Positions 637 to 22,015 of a DNA stretch of 64,000 bases are shown here, one piece after another. Made by a program: the position numbers and the translations under genes. The stretch is from a virus. The notes beneath the pieces were generated by a model, which saw only the letters and a program-made list of their open reading frames with translations, did not search any database and had not been told where the DNA came from. How positions within the stretch are numbered: the first letter of the stretch is position 1; each line of letters opens with the position of its first letter. The stretch lies in the IMG/VR virus record IMGVR_UViG_3300017969_000006, positions 1-64,000 of that record. One strand, written 5' to 3'.

Positions 637-2217
637 CTAGGAGTTCAACAGCACGTTGCTCGTATGAGCGACAAGGGTAATGTTTTGATCAATTGAGTCA
701 CAGATGGCCATGATCCCGCCAGTAGCGCCGACGCTTCCCTGATTGCCTGTTCCGCCAGTTCCTTTAAGCCCTCTTGCTCCCGCCGCACCAGCGTTTCCAC
801 GCGCACCAGCATTTCCACGTGTGCCAGCAGCACCGCCGGGTACAGCCGCAAATTGGATATCTGGGTTTCGGGTTCCGGGAGTGGTGCTGTAGACCGCATG
901 ACCCGGAGTGATGTTTGCAGGGTTTTCCACTGTATGAGTATTGCTCGGGTTGTGAGCCCCTGCCACATGATGATTGTGATTGGGGTTGTAGTTGTAATAC
1001 GTGTAATAGGAATAAATAGCACCGGGCGCATGCAACACGTAATGGTGATTGGACCGCTTCGCAGTGTAGTGAACATGCTGCTGAGGAACACCGGTTTCAT
1101 CAACGGCGTGACCGGTATTGTGATGGTAATTGCTTCGTTGATGGTGTGAATACGGTGGGTGACGATTTTCGACTGTAATCGTTTCAGCGACCTGCGCTCC
1201 ACCGTGTGCGTGGTGATGGTCTTGATTACCCGGAACCGTCACGTTGTGCTGCTGATAGTTCTGAACATCGGGGTTCGTGCCAACGTAGTTTGTGACAGGA
1301 GGGTTATGGTTGCCTTGGGCGTGGTGACCGGCATGACTGTTCCCAGCAGTTCCAGCGTTGCCAACGGTCCCAGCAGTTCCAGCAGTTCCAGCGTTGCCCG
1401 GATTTCCGTCAATCCCGTCAGCGCCTTTTTGTCCCAAATACCCGGTGCGGCCTTCACTCACAATTGAACCACTACCAACAATATGTTTAGCCACTACGAG
1501 AACAAGCCCGCCACCATCCCCACCTAAACCGGCAGCACCTGTAGCACCCGGATTCCCCGGGTTCCCCGGATTACCATCAGTGCCGGGGTTGCCGGGATTT
1601 CCCGGATTCCCTGGGTTACCGGGGTTCGATGAATATTCCGGAGAATTGCTATTGGCAGGGACGGTTCCACCCGCGTTACCAGCGCCACCCGCGCCACCTA
1701 GACCTGCTGTCCCACCGGCACCACCAGAGGTTCCTAATGTTCCAGCAACGTCGGTGCCCAAATTACCGTCATCAGCATTTTCGACACGGACAAAACCGTT
1801 TTGAGGATCAAACCTCCAGCCTGAACGAACAAAGTTCAAGTCCTTCATAAGTGACTGAGGAACCTGTGTTCCGCTTGAAGAAGAACCAAGAACAAAGGCT
1901 TTGGTGACGCCAAGTCCAACTGCCTCAATATCGTTGACGCGGCCAACAACAGTTCCGAGACTCACTGTCTCATCAATTGCTGATGTCATGCCAATTTTTC
2001 CACCAGTGTTGATAGTGAGAGTGTCTCGCACGAACACACGGAAACCGTTAGTGAAAAGCGTACAGTTTTGATTAATGGTCAAGTTCTCGTAATACATGTC
2101 TCGAGAAATGAGGTGCGAAGAAGTTGCCACCGTGTAGTTGCCGTCGCGACCGGAACCATAGATCGAGTCGTTACCCAAACGCTGTTCACGCTTGCGCGTC
2201 CGAATGACGCCAGCCAT
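637..2217 (-). CDS. Collagen-like, histidine-rich tail adhesin
   Basis: A 526-residue fibre or adhesin. Residues 15-75 (IYGSGRDGNYTV, DMYYENLTI, TNGFRVFVRDTL) are shared with the next gene, 2217-2921, and probably anchor both proteins. Glycine-rich runs at 160-185 and 230-240 recall the polyglycine sandwich of T-even gp38-type adhesins. Residues 198-224 are nine Gly-X-Y triplets, eight of them Asn-Pro-Gly, and more triplets follow at 265-293 and 460-510. Residues 295-460 are very rich in His, Asn, Tyr and Pro, including HHHAHGG and HHNTGH. The start overlaps the upstream stop as TAATG. The likely role is receptor binding at the tail tip. His clusters might bind metal, as in other phage fibre tips, but that is inference. 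Confidence 0.75.
   Translation of the reverse strand: MAGVIRTRKREQRLGNDSIYGSGRDGNYTVATSSHLISRDMYYENLTINQNCTLFTNGFRVFVRDTLTINTGGKIGMTSAIDETVSLGTVVGRVNDIEAVGLGVTKAFVLGSSSSGTQVPQSLMKDLNFVRSGWRFDPQNGFVRVENADDGNLGTDVAGTLGTSGGAGGTAGLGGAGGAGNAGGTVPANSNSPEYSSNPGNPGNPGNPGNPGTDGNPGNPGNPGATGAAGLGGDGGGLVLVVAKHIVGSGSIVSEGRTGYLGQKGADGIDGNPGNAGTAGTAGTVGNAGTAGNSHAGHHAQGNHNPPVTNYVGTNPDVQNYQQHNVTVPGNQDHHHAHGGAQVAETITVENRHPPYSHHQRSNYHHNTGHAVDETGVPQQHVHYTAKRSNHHYVLHAPGAIYSYYTYYNYNPNHNHHVAGAHNPSNTHTVENPANITPGHAVYSTTPGTRNPDIQFAAVPGGAAGTRGNAGARGNAGAAGARGLKGTGGTGNQGSVGATGGIMAICDSIDQNITLVAHTSNVLLNS
1546..1626 (-). repeat. Gly-Asn-Pro collagen-like triplet repeat
   Basis: Nine tandem 9-base units encode NPG x5, TDG, then NPG x3 within the adhesin (residues 198-224). 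Proline sits directly before glycine in each NPG unit, which is the X-Pro-Gly context recognised by collagen-type prolyl 4-hydroxylases. Several putative 2-oxoglutarate oxygenases are encoded in the following 20 kb. Confidence 0.9.
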
Positions 2218-2921
2218 TAGTCAACCTCTAAATAGATAGTAGTGCCGTCACTTCCAGAGCCCTGTCCTCCAGCATTCAAAATAGGGTTGGCGTACGGGTA
2301 GGCGTTGTTAATCGGTGAAGGAGTTGAGACAAGAATCACCACCCCGCCGCCAGCATCCGCTCCTCCCGTCGCCACGATTTGTGAACCATTACCGGCATCC
2401 GCAATGATGTAGCGAGCAGCAACAATAACCACTCCGCCACCCTCACCAGTTCCCCCTGCTCCACCTTGTAGGTAGAGGGGACCGTTGGTTGCTGCGGTGA
2501 CTTGATAGCCGAGAACAGCCTGAGATGCGTAGTGTGTATAGTAAACAGATCCGCCGTCCGCTGTAGTGATCTGAGTGGCGGTAGCGCTGGCACCGTTGCC
2601 ACCAAGACTATTTGTTGTTCCGGTTCCCGCTGCGCCGCCACCAAGAAGCGTTCCTGACCCGTCAAATCCACCGGGTAAACCAATGATCGCATTGTCATGC
2701 AGGGTCAAATTATTCTTAACAAACAAGCGGTAACCATTTGTATTCAGAACAGAGTTTGCGCCGACCTCAAGGTCGTAGTAAAACATGTCGCTCTGGAGGG
2801 TATGAGTAGTGGAAGCGTTAACGGTGTAACTTCCATCAACGCCGCTACCATAAATCTCGTCAGCGGAATCTAAGAATTCTTCCAGCGGACTGGGTGCGTT
2901 CAGTCGTACGATGCCGCCCAT
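2217..2921 (-). CDS. Glycine-rich tail adhesin or fibre tip
   Basis: A 234-residue protein whose residues 20-80 (DEIYGSGVDGSYTV, DMFYYDLEVGANSVLNTNGY, FVKNNLTL) match the N-terminal region of the adhesin at 637-2217, so the two are paralogues. The rest alternates Gly/Ser-rich loops (LLGGGAAGTGTTNSLGGNGA, LQGGAGGTGEGGG) with short beta strands (VVIVAARYI), the pattern of polyglycine-sandwich adhesins. It lacks the collagen triplets and His-rich block of its neighbour. It overlaps that neighbour by one base and lies 5 bases after the 128-residue gene upstream. It probably works at the distal end of the tail. Confidence 0.65.
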   Translation of the reverse strand: MGGIVRLNAPSPLEEFLDSADEIYGSGVDGSYTVNASTTHTLQSDMFYYDLEVGANSVLNTNGYRLFVKNNLTLHDNAIIGLPGGFDGSGTLLGGGAAGTGTTNSLGGNGASATATQITTADGGSVYYTHYASQAVLGYQVTAATNGPLYLQGGAGGTGEGGGVVIVAARYIIADAGNGSQIVATGGADAGGGVVILVSTPSPINNAYPYANPILNAGGQGSGSDGTTIYLEVD

Positions 2922-2926
2922 CGGTA

Positions 2927-3313
2927 TTACACCTCTTGGACTGCTGAGATTGTCACATTCAGGCTTGTTCCGTCACTTGCTCTCATGTAGATCGAGTCGC
3001 CCGCATTCACACTTTGTGCAACATATTCAATAACCAAAGACATGTTGATAAAAGTTGTCTCGTTTGCGTCAATCGTAAAGTTGTTGAACACCATGTGAGT
3101 ATCATTGACGCTTCCCAGAGCGGTAGCGGCAGGCTTAATCCACATAGTGTAAGTCTTCGCGGAAGCAGCGGTGTTGGTAACAATAATCTGCTTAATAATG
3201 TCAGTTGCGTTGGTGGGCACCGTGTATAGGGCGTTCGCGGGCAGGGTTGAAGAACTTGCAGATGTTGGGACCCGGACAGGCCCCACGATGCGTTTCTGAT
3301 AAAAGGCTGTCAT
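2927..3313 (-). CDS. Putative virion beta-sandwich protein
   Basis: A 128-residue protein with no signal peptide. After a short basic start it reads as a single beta-rich domain with strands such as ALYTVP, KQIIVTNT, KTYTMWIKP, ETTFINMSLVI and LNVTISAVQEV. It is Thr/Ala/Asn rich, typical of phage decoration or fibre-associated proteins. Small proteins of this composition are common beside tail fibres in large marine phages. It is transcribed just ahead of the two adhesin genes (5-base gap), so a structural or fibre-assembly role is the best guess. The exact function is unknown. Confidence 0.5.
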   Translation of the reverse strand: MTAFYQKRIVGPVRVPTSASSSTLPANALYTVPTNATDIIKQIIVTNTAASAKTYTMWIKPAATALGSVNDTHMVFNNFTIDANETTFINMSLVIEYVAQSVNAGDSIYMRASDGTSLNVTISAVQEV

Positions 3314-3345
3314 TATCTTGAACCTCGCGAGTGTCGTCAGTTACC

Positions 3346-4185
3346 TTACATCTTACCAGTAATACGTGACTTGAAGCGGCGAATAATGCCAGTTCTGGGC
3401 GCTTTCACATCACTCGAGGAGTAGGGGCACTTTTTGTCTTCAAGTCTTTGGCGGCGCCGATATCGACGCTTGATCGACATTGGCTCAAATGCCATTCCCC
3501 AAGGATGATTGCCTGTGAAGCGATGCATCGTCTCATCGCCCCATAAAACTTCTTGTTTAACGAACCTAGGAAACGTAATCATTGTACCAATTGGCGTCCC
3601 AGCAGGAAGTGTAAAGTCTTCATCTGTAAAAATATTGATAACCCAGTTCATGTGATGGTAAAAATCTGTGTGAACAACCCCGGGAATCAATGTAAATCTT
3701 CTGTCTTCATCCCATGTACACGGAAAAAGCATTGAAGACCACCCGGGAGCAGTCATAACTTCCCATGGATTTACCAATTTCACAAAACTCGCCTCAGGGA
3801 GAGCCCTCTGGTCAGTAATTTTATGAGGACCGACGTCCTCGTAGCGGAATCCTTCAATCTTGAGATATCCGTTTTCGGTACTTTCCCAACGTGATTCCCA
3901 AGTTTTTCCATCAGGAGATTTTCTAAATTTAAGATCAGTGGGAAGAACCCATGTCACACCAGACGTCAGAAAATCCTGCGTACCTTGACAACGCTTCAAC
4001 CCTCTTTTTTCAGGATCGAGTTCCCTAAACCATTCAGGGAAACCTAAAGAGTTATCGACAGGCATTACTCCCGGAGTATAAAGACGGTTATCGCTAGGAA
4101 CCAGCAAAATTTGTCCGGGTTCAGGAACCGGAATATCAGTAAATGCCCGAACGGGGGGCAAAAGTTTCACAGAACTATGTGGCAT
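3346..4185 (-). CDS. DUF6065-like protein
   Basis: A 279-residue protein. Residues about 140-215 (APGWSSMLFP, LIPGVVHTDFY, HHMNWVINIFT, FTLPAGTPIGTMITF) resemble the core of DUF6065 proteins, also seen more clearly at 19086-19814: a large-solvent loop, GVV-x-TD, MNW and a P-A-G-x-P turn. The C-terminus is strongly basic (IKRRYRRRQRL, IIRRFKSRITGK) and holds one Cys in KKCPYSSS. DUF6065 has no established reaction; the fold looks like a small beta barrel. It closes the left end of the oxygenase block, suggesting it takes part in the same process. Homology at this distance is uncertain. Confidence 0.5.
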   Translation of the reverse strand: MPHSSVKLLPPVRAFTDIPVPEPGQILLVPSDNRLYTPGVMPVDNSLGFPEWFRELDPEKRGLKRCQGTQDFLTSGVTWVLPTDLKFRKSPDGKTWESRWESTENGYLKIEGFRYEDVGPHKITDQRALPEASFVKLVNPWEVMTAPGWSSMLFPCTWDEDRRFTLIPGVVHTDFYHHMNWVINIFTDEDFTLPAGTPIGTMITFPRFVKQEVLWGDETMHRFTGNHPWGMAFEPMSIKRRYRRRQRLEDKKCPYSSSDVKAPRTGIIRRFKSRITGKM

Positions 4186-4206
4186 GGGTGAAGATTACTA
4201 CAGCGA

Positions 4207-4908
4207 CTACGCCTTAGTGATCACATAAACCCCGAAGAGAAGTGGGATCGGGTAAATGTGGACATCGTCCAACAACTGCCATCGACGAAATGCCGAGTGA
4301 TACTGGTGGGCCGACCGGTATCGATACAAATTCCCCGAATTTGAGAAATTCGTGACAACGATGGATGCGCCGGAAGGCATCGAGTTGTACAACCTGTCGA
4401 CAATCTCAAAATTGTGAGAAATATATGACGCGTTTACCAACGCCATCTCGAAGCCAACAGGCAAATTGCCGTCATCTACCTGCTGCATCATAACAACATT
4501 GAAATCGAAATCTTCTGGAATCAACCCGTGCCGTTGGGCATAGTCCAAATGAATTGAGTTCCCCACCCAAACGTTCTGTGCGGGAAATTGGTGAATCATG
4601 GGTAGGAGTTCTGGCGCCAAAACAAGCAGGTCGGCTGGCTTTGCTACACGGACATAGGATTCCACGATCGTTTTGAGAGAATTTAAACTGACCTTGTAGC
4701 GCAGGGAGTTGGCTGCACCCATGTCGTACATAACGATTTCATCAACGAAGGACACCCGAGCACGGGAACGATCCATTCCATGCGCACTTTCCTCGGCCAG
4801 AACGGACTCGCAAAAAGTCTTGTAATCGTCGGAGGATAGATTGGCGTGCTCCGTTACAGCCATTTCCTCTGCGTAACTGACAGTCTGGATTGGGTCGGGA
4901 TCAGGCAT
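4207..4908 (-). CDS. Methyltransferase-like Rossmann protein
   Basis: A 233-residue protein with the order of a class I methyltransferase-like fold: a helix, YDMGAANSLRY, strand LLVLAPEL, NVWVGNSIHLDYA, then strand FEMALVNASYISHNFEIVDRL, SMPSGASIVVTNFS and a C-terminal strand pair. The glycine-rich SAM loop (GxGxG) is not recognisable, so catalysis is doubtful. Its 5' end overlaps the 96-residue gene 4901-5191 by 8 bases. The same pair, small protein plus Rossmann protein, recurs on the plus strand at 12681-13785, which suggests a duplicated two-gene module. Substrate unknown. Confidence 0.45.
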   Translation of the reverse strand: MPDPDPIQTVSYAEEMAVTEHANLSSDDYKTFCESVLAEESAHGMDRSRARVSFVDEIVMYDMGAANSLRYKVSLNSLKTIVESYVRVAKPADLLVLAPELLPMIHQFPAQNVWVGNSIHLDYAQRHGLIPEDFDFNVVMMQQVDDGNLPVGFEMALVNASYISHNFEIVDRLYNSMPSGASIVVTNFSNSGNLYRYRSAHQYHSAFRRWQLLDDVHIYPIPLLFGVYVITKA

Positions 4909-5191: not shown

Positions 5192-5340
5192 TGAAAACCT
5201 TCCTGATCTTCGATTTCAACGACGCTCATGGTCCACATCCAGCAGGTCAAAACGACAGATTCCTCTCCACGAGACTCGACAAAACGGTCCGTGTCAACGT
5301 CATACAGATCTGGAATATATGGCAACTGGATTTCAGGCAT
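5188..5340 (-). CDS. 50-residue hypothetical protein
   Basis: A short ORF (MPEIQLPYIPDLYDVDTDR at the start, EIEDQEGFQ at the end) with an AGGGAG ribosome-binding site about 7 bases before ATG 5340. Its stop overlaps the ATG of the next gene (AATGAGT). The tight packing and good ribosome-binding site support it as a real gene. It is acidic, with one Cys and two Trp in CWMWTM. No family is recognised. Confidence 0.6.
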   Translation of the reverse strand: MPEIQLPYIPDLYDVDTDRFVESRGEESVVLTCWMWTMSVVEIEDQEGFQ

Positions 5341-5370: not shown

Positions 5371-6084
5371 TTATTCTTCGTTATCTAAAGACGGATCGTG
5401 GCTGCTCTCGTCAACATCAGTCATCTGGTCGAACGGCACAATTTCTTGACGGACGCATGTCATGAAGGTACTGATCATCCATTTATCTTCACTTATCGGG
5501 GTTGAACCAGAATGCGGGTGCGTCCAATTCGTTGGAAATAGAACGATGCGTCCTGCCCGGGCAGAAACTTTACAGTTGTGGGCGGGAAATGCTGTTTCGC
5601 CACCAACAGCAACATCGTTAAGGTAAATAACGGCACCCAAAACACGTGTGCCGACAGCGTTACCACCTTCCCATGGTGTTCCATCAACATGGGTTCTGTA
5701 GTAACCGACTGCTTTCCTGTATTTCTGAAGACGAAAGCCGGTGTCTTGAATGCCGGGCCATGCCCACAGGTCGCTGAACTCATTAATGTATTTCCCTACA
5801 GCCGCAGCCAAGGATTCTCGGATTATCTCTTCGCAATACCCGAAGATGACTGGATCTACACCGGAGTTCGAAACTGCTTGAACGCTGAGGTTGCAATCCA
5901 TTGAACTTTTCACTCGTGGATCCACCCCTCCAATCGTGGGACCCGGGGTGAAGAGCATCTCGTAGTAGGCCTTGCACTCGTCAATCAATTGAGTGCCGAG
6001 CGACTTTGGGAACATGTTGTCAGCAATCATGATTTGGGTGTCTTTATTATCTTTTGCCCAATTAAATGTTGGAAGTTTGGACAT
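5371..6084 (-). CDS. Prolyl-4-hydroxylase-type 2OG-Fe(II) oxygenase
   Basis: A 237-residue putative dioxygenase that would couple 2-oxoglutarate decarboxylation to hydroxylation of a peptide or small substrate. The double-stranded beta-helix runs from about residue 115 to 212. Iron ligands fit H132 and D134 in YYRTHVDG and H189 in FPTNWTHPHSG; K201 in EDKWMISTF would bind 2-oxoglutarate. VIYLNDVAVGGETAFP is the characteristic P4H-superfamily strand pair. Length is typical of phage P4H-like proteins. It overlaps the halogenase-like gene 6062-7546 by 23 bases, so the two are probably translated together. The substrate is unknown; X-Pro-Gly repeats in the adhesin at 637-2217 are one candidate. 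Confidence 0.85.
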   Translation of the reverse strand: MSKLPTFNWAKDNKDTQIMIADNMFPKSLGTQLIDECKAYYEMLFTPGPTIGGVDPRVKSSMDCNLSVQAVSNSGVDPVIFGYCEEIIRESLAAAVGKYINEFSDLWAWPGIQDTGFRLQKYRKAVGYYRTHVDGTPWEGGNAVGTRVLGAVIYLNDVAVGGETAFPAHNCKVSARAGRIVLFPTNWTHPHSGSTPISEDKWMISTFMTCVRQEIVPFDQMTDVDESSHDPSLDNEE

Positions 6085-7546
6085 TTCCGATACCTCTCAT
6101 GAGTGCATCCCTGTGCGGGATCAATGTTGTGTTGCTGTTTTCAGCCTTGATACTAGCCAGTACCTCTTGTGCTCGCACAACTAGGTTTCTTGCTTGCAGG
6201 CTTCGCTGAGCACTATCGCTTTTAATCAAACCCTGCCCTTGTGCCACGAATAGGAAATGATTTGCTGAAAATAGTTCGCAACCGTTGGTTGGGATGTCGA
6301 CCTGTTCGAGGGGTCGATTTTTAACAATATCCAGAATGTATGTAAGAAAATCTGGTTTTTTTCTCAATTTCTGATCTCGCCAAAGGTCGGTATCATCACG
6401 GTCCGATACGTAATGTAAACAAATCATCGTTAGTAGATTCTCTACCATCCGATCGTATTTTTTGTTGTACGAATCTCGTGCCCATTGACGATCATTGGTG
6501 TAGTGCGGCAAGTATGAAGTAAGAAGGAAACCTTGGAGTACCGATGCGCTGATCGATGTTGCTTCGAGTGGTTCTACAAAGTTTGACGAAAGGCCAATTG
6601 CTACACAGTTGGCAACCCATGGTCTTTCTACTGTTCCGGGTGAAAAATCAATAAATCGCGGATCGTCGATAATTCTGTCAAGGCGTTGCTCGAATTGTTT
6701 GTGGACTTGTTCTTGTGTAGCATACTCCGATCCGTAAACATAACCATTCCCGATACGCGACTGTGTAGGTATTTCCCAACGCCAACCAGCAGGCATTGCC
6801 TCAGCAATCGTGTAGCCACGTAAATCTTTTTCGTTTTCATGCTGGCTTTGAAAAACCATCGCAGAATCACAAGGGAGATAATCCGAAAACGAAACCCACT
6901 TTTGATTTTCAAGCGCGCTAATTATTTTCCGCTTGAATCCAGAGCAGTCAATAACGAAGTCAGTTTCATAAGAACGCTTGGAACCCAAAAGGCTGGTGAT
7001 TTCCCCAGATTCAGATATGTTCACATTGATGATTTCATCATCAGAAAACGAAACACCTATTGATTCGCAAACTCTACGGAGAAAAGAATTCAATTTGTGT
7101 GTGTCGAAATGTAGTTGGTTAGATTGCGCAAGCAACTGCTCAAGATCGTCATTGTCTGCGACATAGCCATCAGGTAAACCGGGATGTGTAAATGCTGGAG
7201 TTAACTGCTTTCCTTGAGCAATTACAGAACTAAACAGGGAATACGCTGTGAAGTGTTCCGTCTGCCCTCCAGCAATACTGTGAAAATAATCAGGGACAGC
7301 CGTTGTCCAGTCAAGAAACCTGATACCAAACTTAAATGTTGCGTCAGTCTCTCTGATCACATCAGAGCGCTGTATGCCAACGAGAGTTTCAAACATTCTC
7401 CAATGTTCGGTACTTCCTTCACCAACCCCAATAATTCCTATCGTGTCAGATGAAATAACCTCAACGTCATATAGCGGGAAGCAGGACTTCAGTAGAGCAG
7501 CGGAGATCATTCCGGCTGTGCCTGATCCAACTACATGTACTTTCAT
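6062..7546 (-). CDS. Tryptophan-halogenase-like flavoprotein
   Basis: A 494-residue protein of the FAD-dependent tryptophan halogenase family. The FAD-binding GSGTAG lies at residues 8-13, a Gly-rich VGEGST at 41-46, the conserved lysine at K72 in ATFKFGIRFLDW (position of the catalytic Lys in PrnA-type enzymes), the halogenase signature WRWEIP at 255-260, and NFVEPLEATSI at 322-332. Retention of Lys and WxWxIP suggests a functional oxidant-forming site. These enzymes need reduced flavin from a separate reductase; none was recognised in the window. Chlorination or bromination of a Trp or other aromatic is possible. Such genes also occur in marine cyanophages beside oxygenases. Confidence 0.85.
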   Translation of the reverse strand: MKVHVVGSGTAGMISAALLKSCFPLYDVEVISSDTIGIIGVGEGSTEHWRMFETLVGIQRSDVIRETDATFKFGIRFLDWTTAVPDYFHSIAGGQTEHFTAYSLFSSVIAQGKQLTPAFTHPGLPDGYVADNDDLEQLLAQSNQLHFDTHKLNSFLRRVCESIGVSFSDDEIINVNISESGEITSLLGSKRSYETDFVIDCSGFKRKIISALENQKWVSFSDYLPCDSAMVFQSQHENEKDLRGYTIAEAMPAGWRWEIPTQSRIGNGYVYGSEYATQEQVHKQFEQRLDRIIDDPRFIDFSPGTVERPWVANCVAIGLSSNFVEPLEATSISASVLQGFLLTSYLPHYTNDRQWARDSYNKKYDRMVENLLTMICLHYVSDRDDTDLWRDQKLRKKPDFLTYILDIVKNRPLEQVDIPTNGCELFSANHFLFVAQGQGLIKSDSAQRSLQARNLVVRAQEVLASIKAENSNTTLIPHRDALMRGIGNVQTSNI

Positions 7547-7549: not shown

Positions 7550-8119
7550 TTAACCAAAAAAACCCTGCAAGACGAAACAGTGAGGAGATTCGAAGGAAAA
7601 AAGTTGCTCAAACGGGAATCCGGTAGGACCAACAAGAACATCTCCAATGTCCAAAACGAAGTCCCTCTCAAGCAAAGGAAATGAGACTTTTGCCGATGAA
7701 GACAACGGTGCAAGGATCGAAAAAGGAAAACGTGGATCACCAGAAACTGGGCCTGAAGCAGGGGACCACTCCGCATTTTTCTCAAACAACATTATAGAAT
7801 ATAGGCTCTTTTCGACGTTGGGGTGGTCATAACGCATTCCATAATCGCGAACACACTCAGAGACAAGTTCGTCAACAACAGAAAAAACTTCCTTGATGGG
7901 ATTCAGTCTTTTGTTATCGCGGCTTTGTCCCACCGGATTCAAGTCGATCAAACTTGAAGCAATTATTTCGTTACTCCCGGGATTGATCTTTCTTGGCTCG
8001 AGATATGACCAATCGCGTTTAACTTCTGCATCTACCAAAGAAAAGAAGTCACCGACAGAAATTCTATTACGGAAAATTGAAGTGAAATTGTATTCTTCCG
8101 GAACAAATGCGTGACTCAT
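7550..8119 (-). CDS. Degenerate oxygenase-like protein
   Basis: A 189-residue protein, the same length as the active-looking oxygenase just upstream (8121-8690). Its C-terminal half has jelly-roll-like strands (KSLYSIMLFEKN, FSILAPLSSS, DFVLDIGDVLVGPTG, PHCFVLQGFF). At the place of the HxD motif it reads EWSPASG, and no distal His-Arg pair is evident, so the iron site is missing. I infer an inactive paralogue or partner subunit of a 2-oxoglutarate oxygenase. A different cupin-like fold is possible. Gaps of 1-3 bases on both sides place it firmly in the operon. Confidence 0.5.
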   Translation of the reverse strand: MSHAFVPEEYNFTSIFRNRISVGDFFSLVDAEVKRDWSYLEPRKINPGSNEIIASSLIDLNPVGQSRDNKRLNPIKEVFSVVDELVSECVRDYGMRYDHPNVEKSLYSIMLFEKNAEWSPASGPVSGDPRFPFSILAPLSSSAKVSFPLLERDFVLDIGDVLVGPTGFPFEQLFSFESPHCFVLQGFFG

Positions 8120-14814: not shown

Positions 14815-15461
14815 AAAGGATCAGCGCCCGGCTGATTGCCTTGACCAAAAAACTCAAGATATGACACCCTGTGGCCAGATGTAATGTCAGTCACTGCGTG
14901 AGTTCCTAGATAGCCGGCTGAATAAATAAATGCTGATCCGGTTTTTGGCTTAAAGTCGAGATTCGGGTATTTGAATTGTAGGTTTCCACCTTCGCACGTG
15001 TCGCGAAGAATGAGAGATCCTGTCAAAACGGTCATGAGAGACGTTTCGCTCGCTTCACCATCACCTATGAGATTGTCATGGTGAAAACCCATTCCAGCGG
15101 TAACACCATAGGTCGCAACATGCGGTTGAGTTCTCCACCAAATACAAGGCCCCACTTCGGGGAAATGACTGATGTATCGGCGAACGCATTCACCCATTCC
15201 CTCATACATCGTATGAAAAAACTTTAAATCTTCGTCGTTTACTTCATGATCTAGACGAAGAAGTCTTCCCGGTGACATCTCGACTTCTTCAGCGGTGAAT
15301 CTGTATCCACCTCTGTTTAGGTACGTCCCATCGTCTTGAAGAATATAGTCGTCAGGCTGTTGCGCTTTGCGTCGTTCAATCCATCCACTAAGAAAGTCTT
15401 GATCGACTTCGATTACGTCATTAAACTCCATGACTCCGAAGCCATGAACGATCTCTTTCAC
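14808..15461 (-). CDS. 2OG-Fe(II) oxygenase
   Basis: A 217-residue putative dioxygenase. The HxD pair is H127/D129 in MGFHHDNL, the distal His H188 in YLGTHAVTD, and R198 in GHRVSYLEF the 2-oxoglutarate ligand. WWRTQPHVATYGVTAG and CEGGNLQFKYP align with the plus-strand oxygenase 13798-14814 and with 16032-16847. It converges on 13798-14814 with a 7-base overlap of the coding ends, so there is no room for a terminator between them. Its 5' end overlaps 15458-16030 by 4 bases, suggesting translational coupling. Substrate unknown. Confidence 0.85.
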   Translation of the reverse strand: MKEIVHGFGVMEFNDVIEVDQDFLSGWIERRKAQQPDDYILQDDGTYLNRGGYRFTAEEVEMSPGRLLRLDHEVNDEDLKFFHTMYEGMGECVRRYISHFPEVGPCIWWRTQPHVATYGVTAGMGFHHDNLIGDGEASETSLMTVLTGSLILRDTCEGGNLQFKYPNLDFKPKTGSAFIYSAGYLGTHAVTDITSGHRVSYLEFFGQGNQPGADPFQ

Positions 15462-16030
15462 TCCGGATGACCAGCCGCTAAGTTCTCGGCGCGTTCACGC
15501 TCGTTGCGTAAACGTTTGAATGTTTTTGCTGACATGTCGTCACGGACATCCGTTAAAATTTTGTCCCAGTAGGCTGAAGTGAACAATTCACTTACCTCAC
15601 TGGCATGTTCTCCCGAAAGGTACATCGTATGTTCATCCGTGTAGCCATCTCGTCCGGGATGAGGCCAACCGTACAATCCCATTTCGACGTACTTGATTCC
15701 GGCGTCCGAAAGAATTGATGCAACTTCATGCTCGGATTCTTCGCCCCAAAGGCCATTTGCGTCACAGTAAATCCCGGAATAATTCAGGCTGGCGAACTTG
15801 CGAGCGATATCAAGACACGCTCCACCGTTGACGATGCAAATAACCACGTCTGCTTCGGCAGCAACTTTATCGAGTGTCTCAAGGTCTTCGATTGAATACT
15901 CTTCTGCTCGCGCCTTTGTTTCATCGCTGCGCTCTTCCGATGCCCATACGAGACGATGTCCGCTGTCAATCAGGGAATGTGCCAGAGTTCCTCCCATTTT
16001 TCCGGGATGAAGAATCGCAATGGTACTCAT
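15458..16030 (-). CDS. Lone NAD(P)-binding domain, hydroxyacid dehydrogenase type
   Basis: A 190-residue protein from ATG 16030 (a TTG at 16045 is less likely). STIAILHPGKMGGTLAHSL is the dinucleotide-binding start of the 3-hydroxyisobutyrate/6-phosphogluconate dehydrogenase family. ADVVICIVNGGACLDIARK and GIYCDANGLWGEESEHEVASI continue the fold, and IKYVEMGLYGWPHPGRDG resembles the family's domain-end loop. The usual all-helical second domain, with the catalytic Lys, is mostly absent: only about 45 residues follow. It may be a truncated reductase or a binding domain. It sits between two oxygenase genes, so it may reduce or reshape an oxidised product. Confidence 0.65.
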   Translation of the reverse strand: MSTIAILHPGKMGGTLAHSLIDSGHRLVWASEERSDETKARAEEYSIEDLETLDKVAAEADVVICIVNGGACLDIARKFASLNYSGIYCDANGLWGEESEHEVASILSDAGIKYVEMGLYGWPHPGRDGYTDEHTMYLSGEHASEVSELFTSAYWDKILTDVRDDMSAKTFKRLRNERERAENLAAGHPE

Positions 16031-16031
16031 G

Positions 16032-16847
16032 TCAGTTGAATCCAATCGGTGGGAGGATGGAATATCCTTCGGTCATGTAAACGTTAGATGCTGTGGCAGC
16101 AACGTCAGGTTCCGTAACCGGGTCTGCTACTGCTTCAAGATAATTCGCATTTGGAGAACCTTGACAATACCAGCCAAGGTATGAATATCTCCACCCCCCT
16201 GTCACCGTCTTGACTTCATGTGCCGCAAGATAATTTGCTGGGAAGAAAATCATATCTCCACGCTTCGGTTTGATGCTGATGTCGTAGTAAGAGAAACTAT
16301 GCTCGCCACCAGTGAAATTTGTTCCGTCGAGTTCTTCCTCAGTTTCAACATGATCGTTGATGTAGGCAACGACGGATACAGATGAGCGTGTGGCAAGTTG
16401 GTCGCGCGGATGAGGTTTTCCGTACTCGTAATCAGTACTCACATCTGAGTGAGGACCAAGAAATGCACCTTTAGGGTAGGCGACGATATGCCCGCGAATT
16501 TTCCACCAGATGGTTTTCCCGGCCATCGGGAATCGCTCAAGGTAATCCAGTAAGCAAGCATCGCGACGTGCCTCGATGTAATCAAGGGTTTCGATTACTT
16601 TCGGATCTGGATTCTGGTGGACCAAACTTCCTCTCCATGGCATTTCGTCGAGGGTGCCTTTTTCAAAAAAGAACTTGCTTCGATTGATGTAACCCTCTTT
16701 GCCAGTGATCGGATCAACACCTTCGGTGTATGACTCTGCACGTTCACGTTCGAGGGTCGTTTTGCAGAATTCGCGCATCCAATCCCAATCAAGGTCGAAT
16801 ACGTTTTTGTAGTGCACGATGCCGCCACCCAAATGTTCGCCATGCAT
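16032..16847 (-). CDS. 2OG-Fe(II) oxygenase
   Basis: A 271-residue putative dioxygenase. H133/D135 in LGPHSDVS, H210 in NYLAAHEVKT and R220 in GGWRYSYL fit the iron and 2-oxoglutarate sites. WWKIRGHIVAYPKGAFLG and KPKRGDMIFFPANYL mark the same subgroup as 13798-14814 and 14808-15461, and the N-terminal GGGIVHYKNVFDLD matches their GG-start motif. An insert at 165-180 (HVETEEELDGTNFTGG) enlarges the strand II-III loop. It ends one base before the start of the dehydrogenase-like gene downstream. Substrate unknown. Confidence 0.85.
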   Translation of the reverse strand: MHGEHLGGGIVHYKNVFDLDWDWMREFCKTTLERERAESYTEGVDPITGKEGYINRSKFFFEKGTLDEMPWRGSLVHQNPDPKVIETLDYIEARRDACLLDYLERFPMAGKTIWWKIRGHIVAYPKGAFLGPHSDVSTDYEYGKPHPRDQLATRSSVSVVAYINDHVETEEELDGTNFTGGEHSFSYYDISIKPKRGDMIFFPANYLAAHEVKTVTGGWRYSYLGWYCQGSPNANYLEAVADPVTEPDVAATASNVYMTEGYSILPPIGFN

Positions 16848-16849
16848 GT

Positions 16850-17521
16850 TTATGCCTCCTCAGGAAAAATACTACTCAAATATCTCATCGAGCCACGTAT
16901 GGTATTTGCAAAAGTTTCGTCATGAGCGGCAATTCTTAATGTTCTCACCCGTGCCCAAAATTTTGACATACGTAAACGCGGAGCACCACCAGTAACCGGC
17001 AGAACTTCGTGCTGGTACTGGTGCCCGCATGGAAATACGACAAGCATTCCGGCCGTCGGTTTAACTGTCACGTTTATCTTGTTGAATGATATTTGACCAC
17101 CATGGTAATTATCGTTGAAATACAAGAGAGTGACGAATTCATTGAATGCTCTGGGTAGTCGCGTTCCATTGGGTCCAAAGTCAAGATCACCTCGTCCTGT
17201 GAGATGATCCCAGTGTCTGCCCATCACAAAGTTGTCAGCGCAACGCTCAAGAAATAGCCCGTGATCAGTTGCTACATCTTCACCACAAGTTTTCGCAAGA
17301 AGGTCACGCATACGATCAACGAGCAAAGTCTCATTATTGAGAACGTTATTGTCGATTGCGACGATTGTAGGATCGGTAATGTCAATTGCCTCAACATCAT
17401 TCTGGAGTTCGGCCCGATCCCAAAAATGATCTTCACGCATCAAACCATTCCAGTATGCGACTTCTTCTAGAGATAAGAAGTCTTTAACTATTCGCATGCC
17501 ATCAATAGATTGAATATCCAT
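16850..17521 (-). CDS. 2OG-Fe(II) oxygenase
   Basis: A 223-residue putative dioxygenase. H103/D105 in GRHWDHLT, H171 in HQYQHEVLPV and an Arg at 182 or 184 fit the active site. TLLYFNDNYHGGQISFNK and KPTAGMLVVFPCG are conserved family segments. The start (IDGMRIVKDFLSLEEVAYW) differs from the GG-start subgroup, and DFGPNGTRLPRAFNEFV shows a long loop after the HxD. It lies 2 bases from each neighbouring gene in a tightly packed operon. Substrate unknown. Confidence 0.85.
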   Translation of the reverse strand: MDIQSIDGMRIVKDFLSLEEVAYWNGLMREDHFWDRAELQNDVEAIDITDPTIVAIDNNVLNNETLLVDRMRDLLAKTCGEDVATDHGLFLERCADNFVMGRHWDHLTGRGDLDFGPNGTRLPRAFNEFVTLLYFNDNYHGGQISFNKINVTVKPTAGMLVVFPCGHQYQHEVLPVTGGAPRLRMSKFWARVRTLRIAAHDETFANTIRGSMRYLSSIFPEEA

Positions 17522-17523
17522 TT

Positions 17524-19089
17524 TTAACGAGATGCCTCGTGTTCATTTAGTTCAAGCATGTAGCCGATGTAATCGTGAACGCGCTCGATAATTCGCTTGC
17601 GAGAATCATCATCCTTCATGTGATTAAAACACCCGTAAAGAGTATCTATGGCAAACTGCACCAAAAAATCTTCAGGAGGCTCTTTGCCGCCGAAGTTCTC
17701 ATACTGCATGAAAGACAAGTTGTGGTAGTTCCAAGGACGATACTTGAGAGGTTGGTGTGGGAACCAATCTGGGTAATGCCAAGAGTGTCCAGCATGTCGC
17801 ATGTCGGGGTGCCAACCCAGAAAACCCCGAATCTGATTAGGGATGCAGCGAGTCGGATCAGGGTCATCATTCATGAACAGATCCCGGTCCGGGGAAAGGA
17901 ACTGATGGAAATCTCCATTTCGTGATGAAATGAATACACACCCCGGAATTGGGGCGTGCGGAAGTTGATGATTTTTATATCGCATTAAATTCGCGAATAC
18001 TCGGTTGTCCCAATTCCAAGGAACCCTATAAAGAATAAAGTCCTCATCGTCAATGAACGAGTGAAATCGTTCTACTTGATCAGGGATTCCTCCATCGGTA
18101 TCTTCAATGACGAACATTGTGACTTTCTGGAATAGGTGCTCGAGATCGGGTAGAGCATAGATTCCTTTCGTGAAAACCAATGGGATGTGGTCCGGATTCG
18201 GACCCATGCTGGTGTCTCGTTGATGATCATCATCAATAACTATGTCACCAAAGTTCTCATTCACCGAGGAGCGAAATTCAGGGTCGTAAAAAGGTCGGTC
18301 TGCGCCTGCTTCAACTCGTTGAAATATGCGGTCTTCTCGCTCCCATCCCGGATAGAAACCATGCATTACGGCTCTGTTGTCCCAAACAACAACATCGCCG
18401 ACACTCCACTCCCACTTGTACCGGTTTGCTTTATTCTTTTGATATTGCTCAACGAAGTCTTTTAGTTCGTCAAACCACGGCTGATTGCCACCATGAAGTT
18501 GTGTCCCCGGACCAGTCCAGTACAGCATCGTTTCACCCGTATCGGGGTGTGTGCGTAAAGCAGGGTGGGGCGTGACATCTCTATCTTCCGCTCCGGTACC
18601 GGAAGAGAACATCGCGGTCTGGAGGTGCTCTTTCAAGTTCGCAGGGCATTCGTCGTACATGTTACGAAGGCTAAGCCAGAACGTGTGACCGTATTCAGGC
18701 TCAACGTTGTATGTAGTCATGTGCATTGAGATCAATGCTGGAGGTTCTTCGAAAAACGGATTATCTGCGTGCCAGTTTTGGTGCAGGAAAGTTTCGGGGT
18801 CATCCTTGTTTTCTACATCTCTGATGGTCGGATGGTTGGCGTCCTTCATGATTCCATCCGGCACAGGCGTCGCATCTGGGTCGTGGTACCCAGAGTAAAG
18901 AGCCTTAACCACCGCGACATGCTCGGCATCAGTCGGGTTCATTCCGATAAACCCAATCATTTTATTCTTTTTGAGAATCTCTTTAAAGTATTCAGGCTCT
19001 GCCAGAACCTGATCAGCGGTAATCCCTTTTATTTTAAAACCAAGATTACCTAGTGTGAGTCCGATTGCGATTCCGCCTACGCCCTTCAT
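17524..19089 (-). CDS. TauD-like oxygenase fused to an unknown C-terminal domain
   Basis: A 521-residue protein. Residues 15-270 are a TauD/TfdA-type domain: KKNKMIGFIGMNP near the start, H107/D109 in NWHADNPF, a Thr/Ser-rich middle, H243 in NRAVMHGFYPGW and R257 in DRIFQRVEAG. Residues 285-521 do not match the family: LVFTKGIYALPDLEHLFQKV, FHSFIDDEDFILYRVPWNWD, FISSRNGDFHQF and HPDMRHAGHSWHYPDW. The second part is rich in Trp, His and Asp and looks like a separate folded domain of unknown function. TauD enzymes usually hydroxylate small acids. The 3' end abuts 16850-17521 (2 bases) and the 5' end overlaps 19086-19814 by 4 bases. Confidence 0.75.
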   Translation of the reverse strand: MKGVGGIAIGLTLGNLGFKIKGITADQVLAEPEYFKEILKKNKMIGFIGMNPTDAEHVAVVKALYSGYHDPDATPVPDGIMKDANHPTIRDVENKDDPETFLHQNWHADNPFFEEPPALISMHMTTYNVEPEYGHTFWLSLRNMYDECPANLKEHLQTAMFSSGTGAEDRDVTPHPALRTHPDTGETMLYWTGPGTQLHGGNQPWFDELKDFVEQYQKNKANRYKWEWSVGDVVVWDNRAVMHGFYPGWEREDRIFQRVEAGADRPFYDPEFRSSVNENFGDIVIDDDHQRDTSMGPNPDHIPLVFTKGIYALPDLEHLFQKVTMFVIEDTDGGIPDQVERFHSFIDDEDFILYRVPWNWDNRVFANLMRYKNHQLPHAPIPGCVFISSRNGDFHQFLSPDRDLFMNDDPDPTRCIPNQIRGFLGWHPDMRHAGHSWHYPDWFPHQPLKYRPWNYHNLSFMQYENFGGKEPPEDFLVQFAIDTLYGCFNHMKDDDSRKRIIERVHDYIGYMLELNEHEASR

Positions 19090-19814
19090 TGATCAGGCTC
19101 CTTCAGTTTTGGGTGACCAGAAAACTCTGGCCCAATTCGTTGTCCGTCAGCATCCAGACCAGTTCGGATTCCACCCATCCAAGTCCATGGTTGCTCTCGA
19201 AGTTTTGTCATTTTCGCATCGCTATAACGTTGACGTGAATCATTTAATTCCTTTTGGTCGTCATCCCACATGTTGTTCACAGTGAAATCAACTGAAGGCA
19301 TTAAATCTTTCTTGTAAAACTGGAAGAACATAAATGGGCTGCCAGCAGGAAACGTGACCGGAGATCCGACTTTCGTAATTTTCCAGTTCATATTGAACTC
19401 ATCGGGCCACCAGTCAGATGGAATGTTTGCCGTGAGTGGAACCGCTCCATCGATAAACAAATTCGGAGATCCAGAGATCCATGTTTCAATACCCGGAGGG
19501 GTATGAAATGTCCACCCGACACAAAAAGACATTATTCCGACGATGCTGGGCATGACGATGTCTCGCTCGTAAGAGTGCCCGTCGATCTCAAATGACATGG
19601 TTTGACCGGAAAGAACTTGAGGAACACCGACTCCATCCCATTGAACAACTACATCTTGTTGCAGTACGAGTTCCCAACCATTCACGTTTGCTTCCGTGAG
19701 CGGCAAACACTTATACGCGTGCTTGTTGTAGGTGTCGTCCATCCAGTCGCGACGCGGAGTTGCTTGCCGAATGGTGGGCGGGTTCTGATGGCTTCGCGTA
19801 AGCGTCACATCCAT
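19086..19814 (-). CDS. DUF6065 family protein
   Basis: A 242-residue protein from ATG 19814, which follows the stop of the gene upstream by one base; longer starts would overlap that gene deeply. Residues 80-170 carry the DUF6065 pattern: VGWTFHTPPGIETWISG, NLFIDGAVPLTANIPSDWW, FNMNWKITKVG and FPAGSPFMFFQF. The C-terminal part is polar and basic (SRQRYSDAKMTKLREQPW). The family is of unknown function and often lies near oxygenases. A second, more divergent member is at 3346-4185. Both are in the oxygenase block, so they may bind or process its substrate. Confidence 0.7.
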   Translation of the reverse strand: MDVTLTRSHQNPPTIRQATPRRDWMDDTYNKHAYKCLPLTEANVNGWELVLQQDVVVQWDGVGVPQVLSGQTMSFEIDGHSYERDIVMPSIVGIMSFCVGWTFHTPPGIETWISGSPNLFIDGAVPLTANIPSDWWPDEFNMNWKITKVGSPVTFPAGSPFMFFQFYKKDLMPSVDFTVNNMWDDDQKELNDSRQRYSDAKMTKLREQPWTWMGGIRTGLDADGQRIGPEFSGHPKLKEPDQ

Positions 19815-19815
19815 T

Positions 19816-20523
19816 TCAGGAACCAAGCATTGTGACTTGCGAATTTGCGTCTGGCAGACCCAGACCCGGCATACCGGCAGACGCATACCCGCCAGACCCG
19901 CCATGTTCTTTGTGGTTTCTATCGTTGTAGTCGTACATGGTGACGGCAGAATATTTGGTGCCTGACGAAACCGGCATTGAGGCGTGCGCATAAATGAAGT
20001 CGCTTGGATGCACGATGACATCACCAAATTCTGGCTTGAACTTGATGTTCTTGTACGGCATCATGTACTCGCCACCCTCGTAATCGTCATTGATGTATCC
20101 AATTGCGGACACTGCACACGAGTATGAAAAGCCGGAATCTGGATGCACGGCAAAGTGTTGGCCCGGACCGTATTTAACGAAGTTGGTTGCTTCTTCGTAG
20201 TCAAGAGACAGATTAAACATTGACGAGTAGTGCTTAACGCATGAACGCACACCAGCAATGACTTCCTCGTAGACCTTTCCAAGATCAGCAAATTCTTCAG
20301 GAACCGGCATGTCACCCTGTCGCAACTTGAAGTCGAAACAGTCGCGATAATCCTTCATGATCTCATTGTCGCCAACCATGGCCTGCTTCCACGTGAAGTA
20401 GTCGGTTGCACTTCCTTCGAGACCACGTTCCAGTCGGCCAGTGAAATTAGAGTCGACCGGCCAGACGTCCTTATAAAGGATGATCCCGTCTGTTGGGGTT
20501 CCCAGAGTGCCTGCTACGCGCAT
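19816..20523 (-). CDS. 2OG-Fe(II) oxygenase
   Basis: A 235-residue putative dioxygenase. H127/D129 in HFAVHPDSG, H180 in FIYAHASMPV and K190 in GTKYSAVTM fit the active site, with Lys in place of the Arg of most neighbours. SAIGYINDDYEGGEYMMP and KPEFGDVIVHPSD are conserved. The N-terminus (TDGIILYKDVWPVD) matches the GG-start subgroup. The tail (GGSGGYASAGMPGLGLPD) is Gly-rich and probably disordered. It overlaps 20523-21158 by one base. Substrate unknown. Confidence 0.85.
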   Translation of the reverse strand: MRVAGTLGTPTDGIILYKDVWPVDSNFTGRLERGLEGSATDYFTWKQAMVGDNEIMKDYRDCFDFKLRQGDMPVPEEFADLGKVYEEVIAGVRSCVKHYSSMFNLSLDYEEATNFVKYGPGQHFAVHPDSGFSYSCAVSAIGYINDDYEGGEYMMPYKNIKFKPEFGDVIVHPSDFIYAHASMPVSSGTKYSAVTMYDYNDRNHKEHGGSGGYASAGMPGLGLPDANSQVTMLGS

Positions 20524-21158
20524 TATTTCCTCAATTCAGTAATCGTGTAAAAAGATGGAGTGGTCCAGCGTTCGCCGGAGATTATTTGCTTCACGCCATG
20601 AAGGTAGTGTACGTCGCCGGGGTGAGCAACTGCAAGGCCCGGTTTGATCTCAAGTTCGATATCAAATTCTGGATAATAGAACTGGCCGCCCTCAAATTCG
20701 TCATTCCAATAAATAATCGAATTAATATCGTATGTTGGGAACGGGTTGGGTTTCCCATCATTGAGTTGCTTGTCGGCGTGTGGCTGCTGCTCGTTTCCGG
20801 GCAACCAGCGGATCAGGACGGGTGGCCGGCAGTAAACAGATACGTTGAACTTATCTTCAATTACTGACTGCATTTTGAAAATATACTTATTGATCAAGTC
20901 AAACATGTCTGGCGCTGTGCGTTGCAGAATTTGACCGCTGCACATCCTATCCCACCAGTATGAAGCATCGTAGATGCAGGTGCCGTCCTCGTCGAATTCG
21001 TCACCTTTCGGATTTTCCCATTCCTGAATTGTCGGAAAAAAGTCCTGAAGTCTACGAAGATCTTCGGGTTCAACGAAATCTTCAATAATTACAATGTTCT
21101 CTACACCTGTGCCGAAGTGTCCGGGGTCAATAAGAGAACGCTCCTCAGCGGTATCCAT
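20523..21158 (-). CDS. 2OG-Fe(II) oxygenase
   Basis: A 211-residue putative dioxygenase and the first gene transcribed in the leftward oxygenase run. H127/D129 in QQPHADKQL, H187 in VHYLHGVKQI and R197 in GERWTTPSF fit the active site. SIIYWNDEFEGGQFYYP and IKPGLAVAHPGD are conserved segments. The N-terminus (IVIIEDFVEPEDLRRLQDFF) is the usual phage P4H-like start. A 32-base gap separates it from the membrane-protein gene upstream, too short for a confident promoter. Substrate unknown. Confidence 0.85.
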   Translation of the reverse strand: MDTAEERSLIDPGHFGTGVENIVIIEDFVEPEDLRRLQDFFPTIQEWENPKGDEFDEDGTCIYDASYWWDRMCSGQILQRTAPDMFDLINKYIFKMQSVIEDKFNVSVYCRPPVLIRWLPGNEQQPHADKQLNDGKPNPFPTYDINSIIYWNDEFEGGQFYYPEFDIELEIKPGLAVAHPGDVHYLHGVKQIISGERWTTPSFYTITELRK

Positions 21159-21190
21159 GAGATGAGATTATCACAACAGCCGCAGTAGAC

Positions 21191-21460
21191 CTACTTATTC
21201 ATATATCTACGCACGCGATGTTCGCCGATGAGATGGAATGTGGCGATCATCCATGCGATATGAACAAAAACAGAACGTGTCGGGTGGACCGCATTCCGCC
21301 AGTAACTACGTGTCAGGGTTTCGATCTTTTGCGTTCGTATCGCGTACAGATCGAAAAGACATATGTACAAGGCGAGAAAGGCCCACCCGAGCGCTCCTGA
21401 CTTCCTGCCGTTCCGTTCAAGGCTGATAGGGCCCCAAAAACGCTTGACTAGAGAAGCCAC
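21191..21460 (-). CDS. Small two-segment membrane protein
   Basis: An 89-residue protein with a basic start (MASLVKRFWG) and two hydrophobic stretches: ALGWAFLALYICLFDLYAI (24-42) and VFVHIAWMIATFHLI (64-78). The loop between them is polar. The pattern of segment, D-x-x-A, TLTRSYWR, second segment, HL resembles small membrane proteins often seen in actinophage genomes, but I cannot name the family with certainty. It lies between the FPPx fibre gene and the oxygenase run. A second holin or membrane anchor is possible. Confidence 0.5.
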   Translation of the reverse strand: MASLVKRFWGPISLERNGRKSGALGWAFLALYICLFDLYAIRTQKIETLTRSYWRNAVHPTRSVFVHIAWMIATFHLIGEHRVRRYMNK

Positions 21461-21475
21461 CTTCCGCCACGCTCC

Positions 21476-22015
21476 TTACTTGAAGCGTGGCGGGAAGAAT
21501 GGCGGGAAGTGCGGCGGGAAGTGCGGTGGGAACCACGGAGGGAACCACGGCGGGAAGAACGGTGGGAAGTGAGGCGGGAAGTGTGGCGGGAAGAATGGCG
21601 GGAAATGCGGCGGGAAATGCGGCGGGAAGAACGGCGGGAAATGCGGCGGAAAGTGTGGCGGGAAGAACGGCGGGAAGTGGGGCGGGAAGTGTGGCGGGAA
21701 GAACGGCGGGAAGTGAGGCGGAAAATGTGGGGGAAAGTGAGGGGGGAAGTGGGGCGGAAAGAAAGGTCCAATTGCTCGAACGACAATGGTTGTGCCAAGA
21801 GGAATCTCAAAACTTGACGTGGTCGTATAGGTGACACCGTCTACAACGATTTCATGGGCTTTACCAACATCGCCAGAAACCGAGGTATTTGCCGTATTGG
21901 CAGTCTCTGTAGCGGGGAACCCAAGGTTAACCAAAGACGTGACGAGGTTGCCGGCGTCGGTGCCGTCGGTGTATGTAAAAGTTCCGAAAGGAAGGCTGCC
22001 CCTATCTTGTGCCAT
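21476..22015 (-). CDS. Fibre protein with FPPx repeat tail
   Basis: A 179-residue protein from ATG 22015. Residues 1-84 form a small domain (GTFTYTDGTDAGNLVTSL, AHEIVVDGVTYTTTSS, GTTIVVRAIGP) of a kind found at fibre N-termini. Residues 85-177 are 23 tandem FPPx tetrapeptides with x mostly His or Phe, sometimes Trp or Arg, in a higher-order FPPH-FPPH-FPPF pattern. The tail should form a polyproline-II-like rod carrying a regular aromatic and His face. It stands directly downstream of the giant fibre gene and just upstream of the oxygenases in transcription order. It could be a substrate of prolyl hydroxylases. Confidence 0.7.
   Translation of the reverse strand: MAQDRGSLPFGTFTYTDGTDAGNLVTSLVNLGFPATETANTANTSVSGDVGKAHEIVVDGVTYTTTSSFEIPLGTTIVVRAIGPFFPPHFPPHFPPHFPPHFPPFFPPHFPPHFPPFFPPHFPPHFPPFFPPHFPPHFPPFFPPHFPPHFPPFFPPWFPPWFPPHFPPHFPPFFPPRFK
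21485..21763 (-). repeat. 12-base tandem repeat encoding FPPx
   Basis: Twenty-three 12-base units plus one extra Phe codon encode FPPH/FPPF/FPPW/FPPR in the fibre gene. A 36-base superperiod (FPPH, FPPH, FPPF) is visible for most of its length. Such repeats can expand or contract by slippage or recombination. Nucleotide differences between units are mostly at third positions and at the x codon, indicating selection on the protein repeat. Confidence 0.95.

Follow-up and report, generated by a model that had tools for sequence, protein, structure and literature searches.

Organization of the oxidative-enzyme block

The window analysed here comprises the first 64 kb (64,000 nucleotides) of the 99,771-bp virus record IMGVR_UViG_3300017969_000006 and belongs to a contractile-tailed phage, for which genes of the sheath, terminase, portal and head protease could be recognised. 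On the minus strand, to which all coordinates refer unless a plus sign is given, a tail-fibre gene (22022-27856, Pfam Mtd_N) lies directly upstream of a gene for a protein with Phe-Pro-Pro-x repeats (FPPx; 21476-22018). A run of genes for oxidative enzymes follows, and then two genes for Gly-rich adhesin-like proteins (2217-2921 and 637-2217). Pfam assigns seven PF13640 genes, one PhyH, two TauD and one Trp_halogenase gene (2.3e-97) to this block, together with a glutathione-peroxidase (GPx)-fold protein and a DUF6065 protein. Between the larger adhesin gene, which carries collagen-like Gly-Asn-Pro (GNP) repeats, and the FPPx gene lie eight 2-oxoglutarate (2OG)-Fe(II) oxygenases with intact triads. 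The HxD...H...R/K ligands for iron and 2OG are present in all eight, and the active-site ligands of the PhyH and TauD genes are intact as well. The Pfam matches and the ligand check confirm a preliminary description of this DNA, in which an oxygenase block was seen to be flanked by a collagen-like adhesin and the FPPx protein. In the following, the FPPx gene with its associated enzymes is referred to as module A, and the adhesin genes with the halogenase and its neighbours as module B.

The FPPx-repeat protein

The FPPx protein consists of a PASTA-like N-terminus, 23 FPPx units and a C-terminal FPPRFK, and has no Pfam domain match. Its start was set to a TTG codon by the gene-finding tool (end 22018); the end at 22015 in the preliminary description is an ATG one codon later. 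In every one of the 23 units the codons specify F, P and P, while the third codon positions vary and both prolines use all four codons. The constraint therefore acts on the repeat at the protein level, and DNA slippage was ruled out as its origin.

A tblastn search with the FPPx protein gave no match, as low-complexity filtering strips the repeat; a DNA pattern for four FPPx units matched at least 119 viral contigs. Across these loci, copy number and x residues vary widely, with x being Phe, Tyr, His or Trp in 1266/1281 units (99% aromatic) and Trp accounting for less than 1%. The repeats are found within proteins of up to 1566 amino acids (aa) with fn3 or S74 domains. In relatives the repeat comes after fn3, PASTA or Ig-like domains, and one relative ends in an S74 intramolecular fibre chaperone after the repeat (3.7e-11). 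Together with the neighbouring tail-fibre gene, these domains indicate that the FPPx protein is likely a part of a virion fibre. Three loci (L072, L255 and L298) carry two FPPx genes each. In five others (L014, L056, L075, L100 and L105) a Hint-like (intein/hedgehog-type) sequence follows the repeats, which suggests autoprocessing of some FPPx proteins.

Core oxygenases A and B resemble prolyl hydroxylases

Downstream of the FPPx gene lie the two core 2OG-Fe(II) oxygenases of module A, the prolyl-hydroxylase-like oxygenase A (20523-21158) and the prolyl 4-hydroxylase (P4H)-like oxygenase B (19816-20523). Oxygenase A has no Pfam match itself, and 29/32 of its orthologues match PF13640. The facial triad and the basic 2OG-binding residue are invariant in 32 aligned orthologues of A (H127, D129, H187 and R197) and in 31 of B (H127, D129, H180 and K190). 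In profile comparisons with the PDB, oxygenase A matched prolyl 3-hydroxylase 1 (P3H1; 1.3e-8) and Bacillus P4H (2e-6), and oxygenase B matched Bacillus P4H (9e-7). AlphaFold2 models of both (predicted local distance difference test scores of 93.6 for A and 86.1 for B) show the double-stranded beta-helix of prolyl hydroxylases. Foldseek matched the model of A to P3H1 and to vCPH of the chlorovirus PBCV-1, and that of B to Pseudomonas putida P4H (1.6e-10), PHD2 and Chlamydomonas P4H bound to (Ser-Pro)5. Folds and profiles thus support peptidyl-prolyl hydroxylation by A and B, short of proving the target residue. Two prolines per repeat unit and two core enzymes, one P3H-like and one P4H-like, make a suggestive match.

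Relatives of oxygenase A occur in at least 596 viral loci, compared with three among 84,980 species genomes, and in all three of the latter an FPPx gene is nearby. The taxa assigned to these three contigs of metagenome-assembled genomes conflict, and the contigs probably derive from phages. Orthologues of the core enzyme are hence rare in cellular genomes, where those of an auxiliary gene taken from a host would be expected to be common. Among 50,697 records, no cultured phage was found with a full-length oxygenase A or with the adhesin.

Oxygenase arrays and DUF6065 are linked to the FPPx repeat

To detail the association, 50 records were compared, 26 with and 24 without FPPx; the present phage is G000 among them. 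At least five PF13640 genes are present in 25/26 FPPx-positive records, with a single copy in the remaining one, and the arrays reach up to 11 oxygenases. Within the set chosen by terminase (n=27, 82-100% similarity), the three FPPx-positive members carry 8-9 oxygenases each, whereas the 24 FPPx-negative relatives carry none (20 records), one (three records) or three (one record). Multi-oxygenase arrays are therefore found in 3/3 FPPx-positive versus 0/24 FPPx-negative terminase relatives (p = 3.4e-4). The FPPx-negative record with three oxygenases has the same terminase as this phage and stops inside the tail-fibre gene. Of the apparent counter-examples with identical terminase, L128 (G019) is unusable, since its sequence breaks off in the tail-fibre gene, a little short of FPPx; L183, a 67-kb record, may also be a fragment.

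The DUF6065 gene (19086-20027; the listed start overlaps the previous gene, and the Pfam match begins at residue 78) is bound to FPPx as tightly as the oxygenases, being present in 24/26 FPPx-positive and 0/24 FPPx-negative records.

The linkage is also polar. Where 5 kb of sequence downstream of FPPx were available, an iterated hidden Markov model search found an oxygenase there in 44/50 loci, at a median gap of 548 nt; upstream the figure was 1/32. Open reading frames (ORFs) with best matches to oxygenases A and B were each found in about 70 of the 119 FPPx loci, and DUF6065 in 55. Both A and B are present in 35/45 loci with at least 6 kb downstream. The reverse test gave the same picture: FPPx lies within 5 kb, in either orientation, in 25/25 oxygenase A loci for which 5 kb of each flank were available and in 27/29 oxygenase B loci with full flanks. 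Each search covered the nearest 80 relatives, and linkage figures of 100%, here and below, apply to close orthologues only; a distant relative of oxygenase A (L220, 59 bits) sits in a record without FPPx. In the two oxygenase B exceptions, L522 and L524, an eroded FPPx stub, YFPPSFCPPCAPQPWP, is left, and the gene for oxygenase B has stayed intact. These two loci represent a natural test of the repeat as the sole substrate.

The preliminary description had proposed to check whether related phages carry proline-rich fibres and oxygenases together, and the FPPx fibres pass this check at a level far above background. Shared descent is a less likely sole cause of the linkage: mapped onto the terminase tree, FPPx requires four separate changes to account for its four carriers. 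Terminase and sheath of this phage are common to only 7/24 FPPx-positive records, though several of the others exceed 60 kb, and the module thus probably crosses phage lineages.

The halogenase is paired with Gly/His/Tyr-rich adhesins

Module B contains a flavin-dependent halogenase (FDH; 6062-7546). Flavin-dependent halogenases are recognized by a GxGxxG flavin motif, a catalytic Lys and a WxWxIP motif (PMC8407142). All three are intact in the window's enzyme, as GSGTAG, as K72, which aligns with the Lys of solved halogenases, and as WRWEIP, and they are invariant over seven phages. Close to it lies a PF13640 2OG-Fe(II) oxygenase (8121-8690) with intact ligands. The gene between the two (7550-8119) encodes an oxygenase-like paralogue in which HxD is replaced by ASG and the distal His by Gln; having lost its ligands, it was ruled out as an active oxygenase. 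It is kept beside the halogenase in four phages, being retained there in L209-L211, and its sequence makes a pseudo-enzyme partner possible.

The adhesin-like protein encoded at 637-2217 (526 aa) is Gly-rich and contains nine NPG units and a His/Tyr-rich segment; its N-terminus is homologous to the smaller Gly-rich protein (2217-2921). The large-adhesin family is hypervariable, with a median of 18.8% Gly and 6.4% His and with Tyr/His-rich segments. Next to the adhesins lie a small conserved protein (2927-3313) and a phrog_7084 family protein (3346-4185). The latter is possibly a distant relative of DUF6065, with weak profile similarity (hhalign probability 27%, E 7e-4), which suggests that the two modules may each rely on an accessory protein of related kind.

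In adhesin loci with 8-kb flanks, the halogenase, the 2OG oxygenase and the phrog_7084 gene were each present in 42/42; all 42 full-flank loci of the 2217-2921 family thus have the halogenase. Conversely, the adhesin is found in 36/38 and the 2OG oxygenase in 37/38 halogenase loci. FPPx was found in 0/156 halogenase/adhesin loci (DNA of up to 10 kb on each side), and records G041 and G044 carry the halogenase module without FPPx. The halogenase and FPPx hence belong to separable modules, and the tight adhesin-halogenase linkage makes the Gly/His/Tyr-rich adhesin, rather than the FPPx rod, the candidate halogenase target.

These results bear on several earlier suggestions. In the preliminary description, Trp of FPPW units was named as a possible target of the halogenase, which finds no support in view of the rarity of Trp at x and of the pairing of the enzyme with the adhesin. 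The single self-contained system proposed there separates into two modules. Prolyl 4-hydroxylation of the NPG collagen units found no support either. The 637-2217 protein is marginally collagen-like (Pfam Collagen 30.6 bits at a cut-off of 27.2; longest Gxx run 13), and GNPG collagen runs are present in only some members of its family. Collagen-like repeats occur in 13/26 FPPx-positive and 8/24 FPPx-negative records (p = 0.26), and PF13640 genes are missing from six relatives that do carry collagen repeats. As collagen repeats are not associated with the oxygenase arrays, collagen was ruled out on co-occurrence as the hydroxylase partner. The idea that the oxygenases belong with the proline-rich fibres of the phage is consequently supported for FPPx and not for the collagen-like repeats.

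Proposed functions of the two modules and alternative explanations

We consider it fairly probable, judging from gene content and pairing, that the block comprises two side-by-side fibre-modification modules, one for prolyl hydroxylation of the FPPx rod and a separate one for modification of the adhesins. In module A, the (FPPx)n rod would be made beside the tail fibre, and oxygenases A and B, encoded by the next genes, would hydroxylate its prolines in the cytoplasm of the host, ahead of assembly, using 2OG, Fe(II) and O2. Proline hydroxylation could stiffen or re-surface the polyproline-type fibre, and DUF6065 and the accessory oxygenases may tune the modification. In module B, the halogenase, the 8121-8690 oxygenase and the phrog_7084 protein would act on aromatic residues (His, Tyr or Trp) of the adhesins (637-2921). 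This proposal builds on what is established, namely the conserved pairings and their polarity, the intact active sites, the prolyl-hydroxylase fold and the near-exclusive presence in viruses. What we infer is the role of the partner protein as substrate, the residue that is modified, and the benefit, be it stability or receptor binding. On a wider scale it is conceivable, if somewhat short of probable, that widespread uncultured phages have oxidised, sometimes halogenated fibres, with an FPPx rod hydroxylated by a dedicated set of enzymes co-travelling between lineages and a separate class of adhesins halogenated by a linked FDH/2OG pair.

Several points weigh against the two-module proposal. 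Enzymes with a prolyl-hydroxylase fold are also known to hydroxylate Lys, Arg and Asn residues or small molecules, and small molecules are the usual substrates of the TauD and PhyH families. The profile similarity of the core enzymes spans mainly the catalytic core, and gene position and domains are the basis for placing the FPPx protein in the virion. Linkage as such indicates shared function rather than an enzyme-substrate relation, and 6/45 FPPx loci with long flanks have no oxygenase. The metagenomic records are partly fragments and partly near-duplicates, which limits the independence of the counts. In chloroviruses, which have an active P4H, a search of PBCV-1 virions for hydroxyproline gave a negative result (PMC7019647).

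The oxygenases might instead act on the aromatic rings of the rod or cross-link it, by hydroxylation of Phe, Tyr or His or by oxidative coupling, with the rod still being the substrate. The aromatic x in 1266/1281 units is in agreement with this, as are a target residue that is not fixed by the fold and arrays of up to 11 oxygenases, far above the need of two prolines per unit. Still, the nearest folds and profiles of both core enzymes are mainly peptidyl-prolyl hydroxylases, and no close relative with aromatic-ring chemistry was found in these comparisons, which makes ring chemistry rather unlikely.

We regard it as improbable that the enzymes are auxiliary metabolic genes for small molecules or glycans of the host and that the FPPx and adhesin genes are merely co-located with them at a cassette site by the tail-fibre gene. 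Cellular genomes all but lack the core oxygenase, its pairing with FPPx is reciprocal and polar, and each of the two modules keeps its own fibre partner; a cassette site alone would not keep oxygenase arrays out of FPPx-negative relatives. The TauD, PhyH, GPx and Rossmann genes of the block would suit a metabolic role, and metagenome papers class viral P4HA as an auxiliary metabolic gene (PMC9301287, PMC9611531).

A role of the FPPx protein as a scaffold or recruiter, with the oxygenases modifying the neighbouring tail fibre or another virion protein, appears very improbable. The FPPx gene is indeed placed between the tail-fibre gene and the oxygenases, and its copy number and x residues are highly variable; on the other hand, the strict repeat sequence fits the proline preference expected of the enzymes, and FPPx resembles a fibre part in occurring within proteins as long as 1566 aa that have fn3 or S74 domains.

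One common system, in which the NPG collagen units would be the substrate of the prolyl hydroxylases and FPPW that of the halogenase, is extremely improbable: both sets share one block in this phage and G048 (L216) and lie side by side in relatives L209-L211 and L215, but the modules are separable, with FPPx absent from all 156 halogenase/adhesin loci within up to 10 kb on each side, the collagen repeats are not associated with the arrays, and Trp is rare at x.

Comparison with known systems

The concept of a virus-encoded enzyme that hydroxylates a viral repeat protein has precedents. PBCV-1 vCPH (PDB 5c5t), which ranks near the top of the Foldseek hits for each core enzyme, is a peptidyl-prolyl hydroxylase proposed to act on viral proline-rich repeats; PBCV-1, however, is a eukaryotic algal virus with one enzyme, whereas the phages described here pair two or more enzymes with one repeat family. 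In mimivirus, collagens are encoded along with enzymes for their hydroxylation and glycosylation (L71, L230 and a prolyl hydroxylase; PMC9546862), so that here, too, viral 2OG oxygenases act on a repetitive fibrous protein of the virus itself. In this giant virus the substrate is Gly-X-Y collagen, which undergoes lysyl and prolyl hydroxylation and glycosylation, while here the rods are FPPx and collagen is not the linked partner. Human P3H1 and the Bacillus and Pseudomonas P4Hs share the double-stranded beta-helix and the HxD...H...R/K ligands and are the best structural matches to the core enzymes. Their Foldseek identity is 13-18% and their cellular substrates are collagen and EF-Tu; the phage orthologues, at 37-76% identity, are much closer to the window's enzyme A.

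For the halogenase, VirX1 of cyanophage Syn10 (PDB 6qgm) is likewise a phage-encoded FDH; it was characterised on synthetic substrates and its natural substrate is unknown (PMC8407142). The window's enzyme belongs to a distinct subfamily with higher scores to other solved halogenases, 9luq and 6frl among them, and shows conserved linkage to an adhesin and a 2OG oxygenase. It also has a weak NCBIfam match (E 0.003) to QhpG, a flavoprotein monooxygenase that modifies protein-bound Trp (PMC7876137). QhpG functions in quinone-cofactor biogenesis, whereas the phage enzyme retains the halogenase motifs.

The preliminary description knew of no example of such a system. In the literature searched this stands for phages, as no phage that modifies its own fibres in this way is described, but not for viruses in general, given PBCV-1 and mimivirus. 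The same literature contained no paper on FPPx strings (FPPFFPP-type) or DUF6065. What appears to be new is the occurrence of such a system in phages, FPPx proteins as a family of candidate substrates, and the pairing of a halogenase with an adhesin. The use of viral P4HA, listed as an auxiliary gene in metagenome papers, 'remains cryptic' (PMC9301287). The strict pairing supplies an adjacent-gene candidate substrate for viral prolyl hydroxylases and for phage halogenases, and reduces both questions to two-gene experiments. If the proposal is correct, receptor-binding or rod proteins of phages bear hydroxyproline or halogen, which would change the view of fibre stability and recognition in aquatic phages and provide a new enzyme set for hydroxylated polyproline materials.

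Further genes of the block and its surroundings

The remaining genes of the block are mostly further oxygenases with Pfam matches and intact ligands. Following DUF6065 are a TauD-family oxygenase with a C-terminal extension (17524-19089), which is in module A of the closest relatives only, and the PF13640 oxygenases at 16850-17521, 16032-16847 (a recurrent accessory of FPPx loci) and 14808-15461. A family search identified an NAD(P)-binding Rossmann protein (15458-16045) between the latter two. Two genes lie on the plus strand: a PF13640 oxygenase (13798-14814, +), which is the best match of ORFs in 21 FPPx loci and has Bacillus P4H as its nearest PDB entry, and a protein kept beside it (13000-13785, +) that has no Pfam or NCBIfam match and is methyltransferase-like by eye only. 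The GPx/thioredoxin-fold protein (11037-11693) recurs in FPPx loci, and in 22 loci with oxygenase arrays, perhaps for peroxide protection or disulfide chemistry. It is followed by a TauD-family (10073-11080) and a PhyH-family oxygenase (9312-10070) and by a small conserved protein (8683-9111) that adjoins the module B oxygenase. On the other side of the halogenase, a 2OG-Fe(II) oxygenase gene (5371-6084) with a Pfam match and intact ligands overlaps the halogenase gene, and a conserved protein without family match (4207-4908) is again methyltransferase-like by eye only.

Elsewhere in the window, genes for 3'-phosphoadenosine 5'-phosphosulfate (PAPS) reductase, thymidylate synthase and a ParB-like protein (50282-53484) are found amid structural genes. 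Beyond window position 1, past the adhesin end of the block, the same phage (L007 17225-20655) encodes a Thr-rich, secreted-looking protein and a probable endolysin, identified by eye, with peptidoglycan-binding-like repeats.

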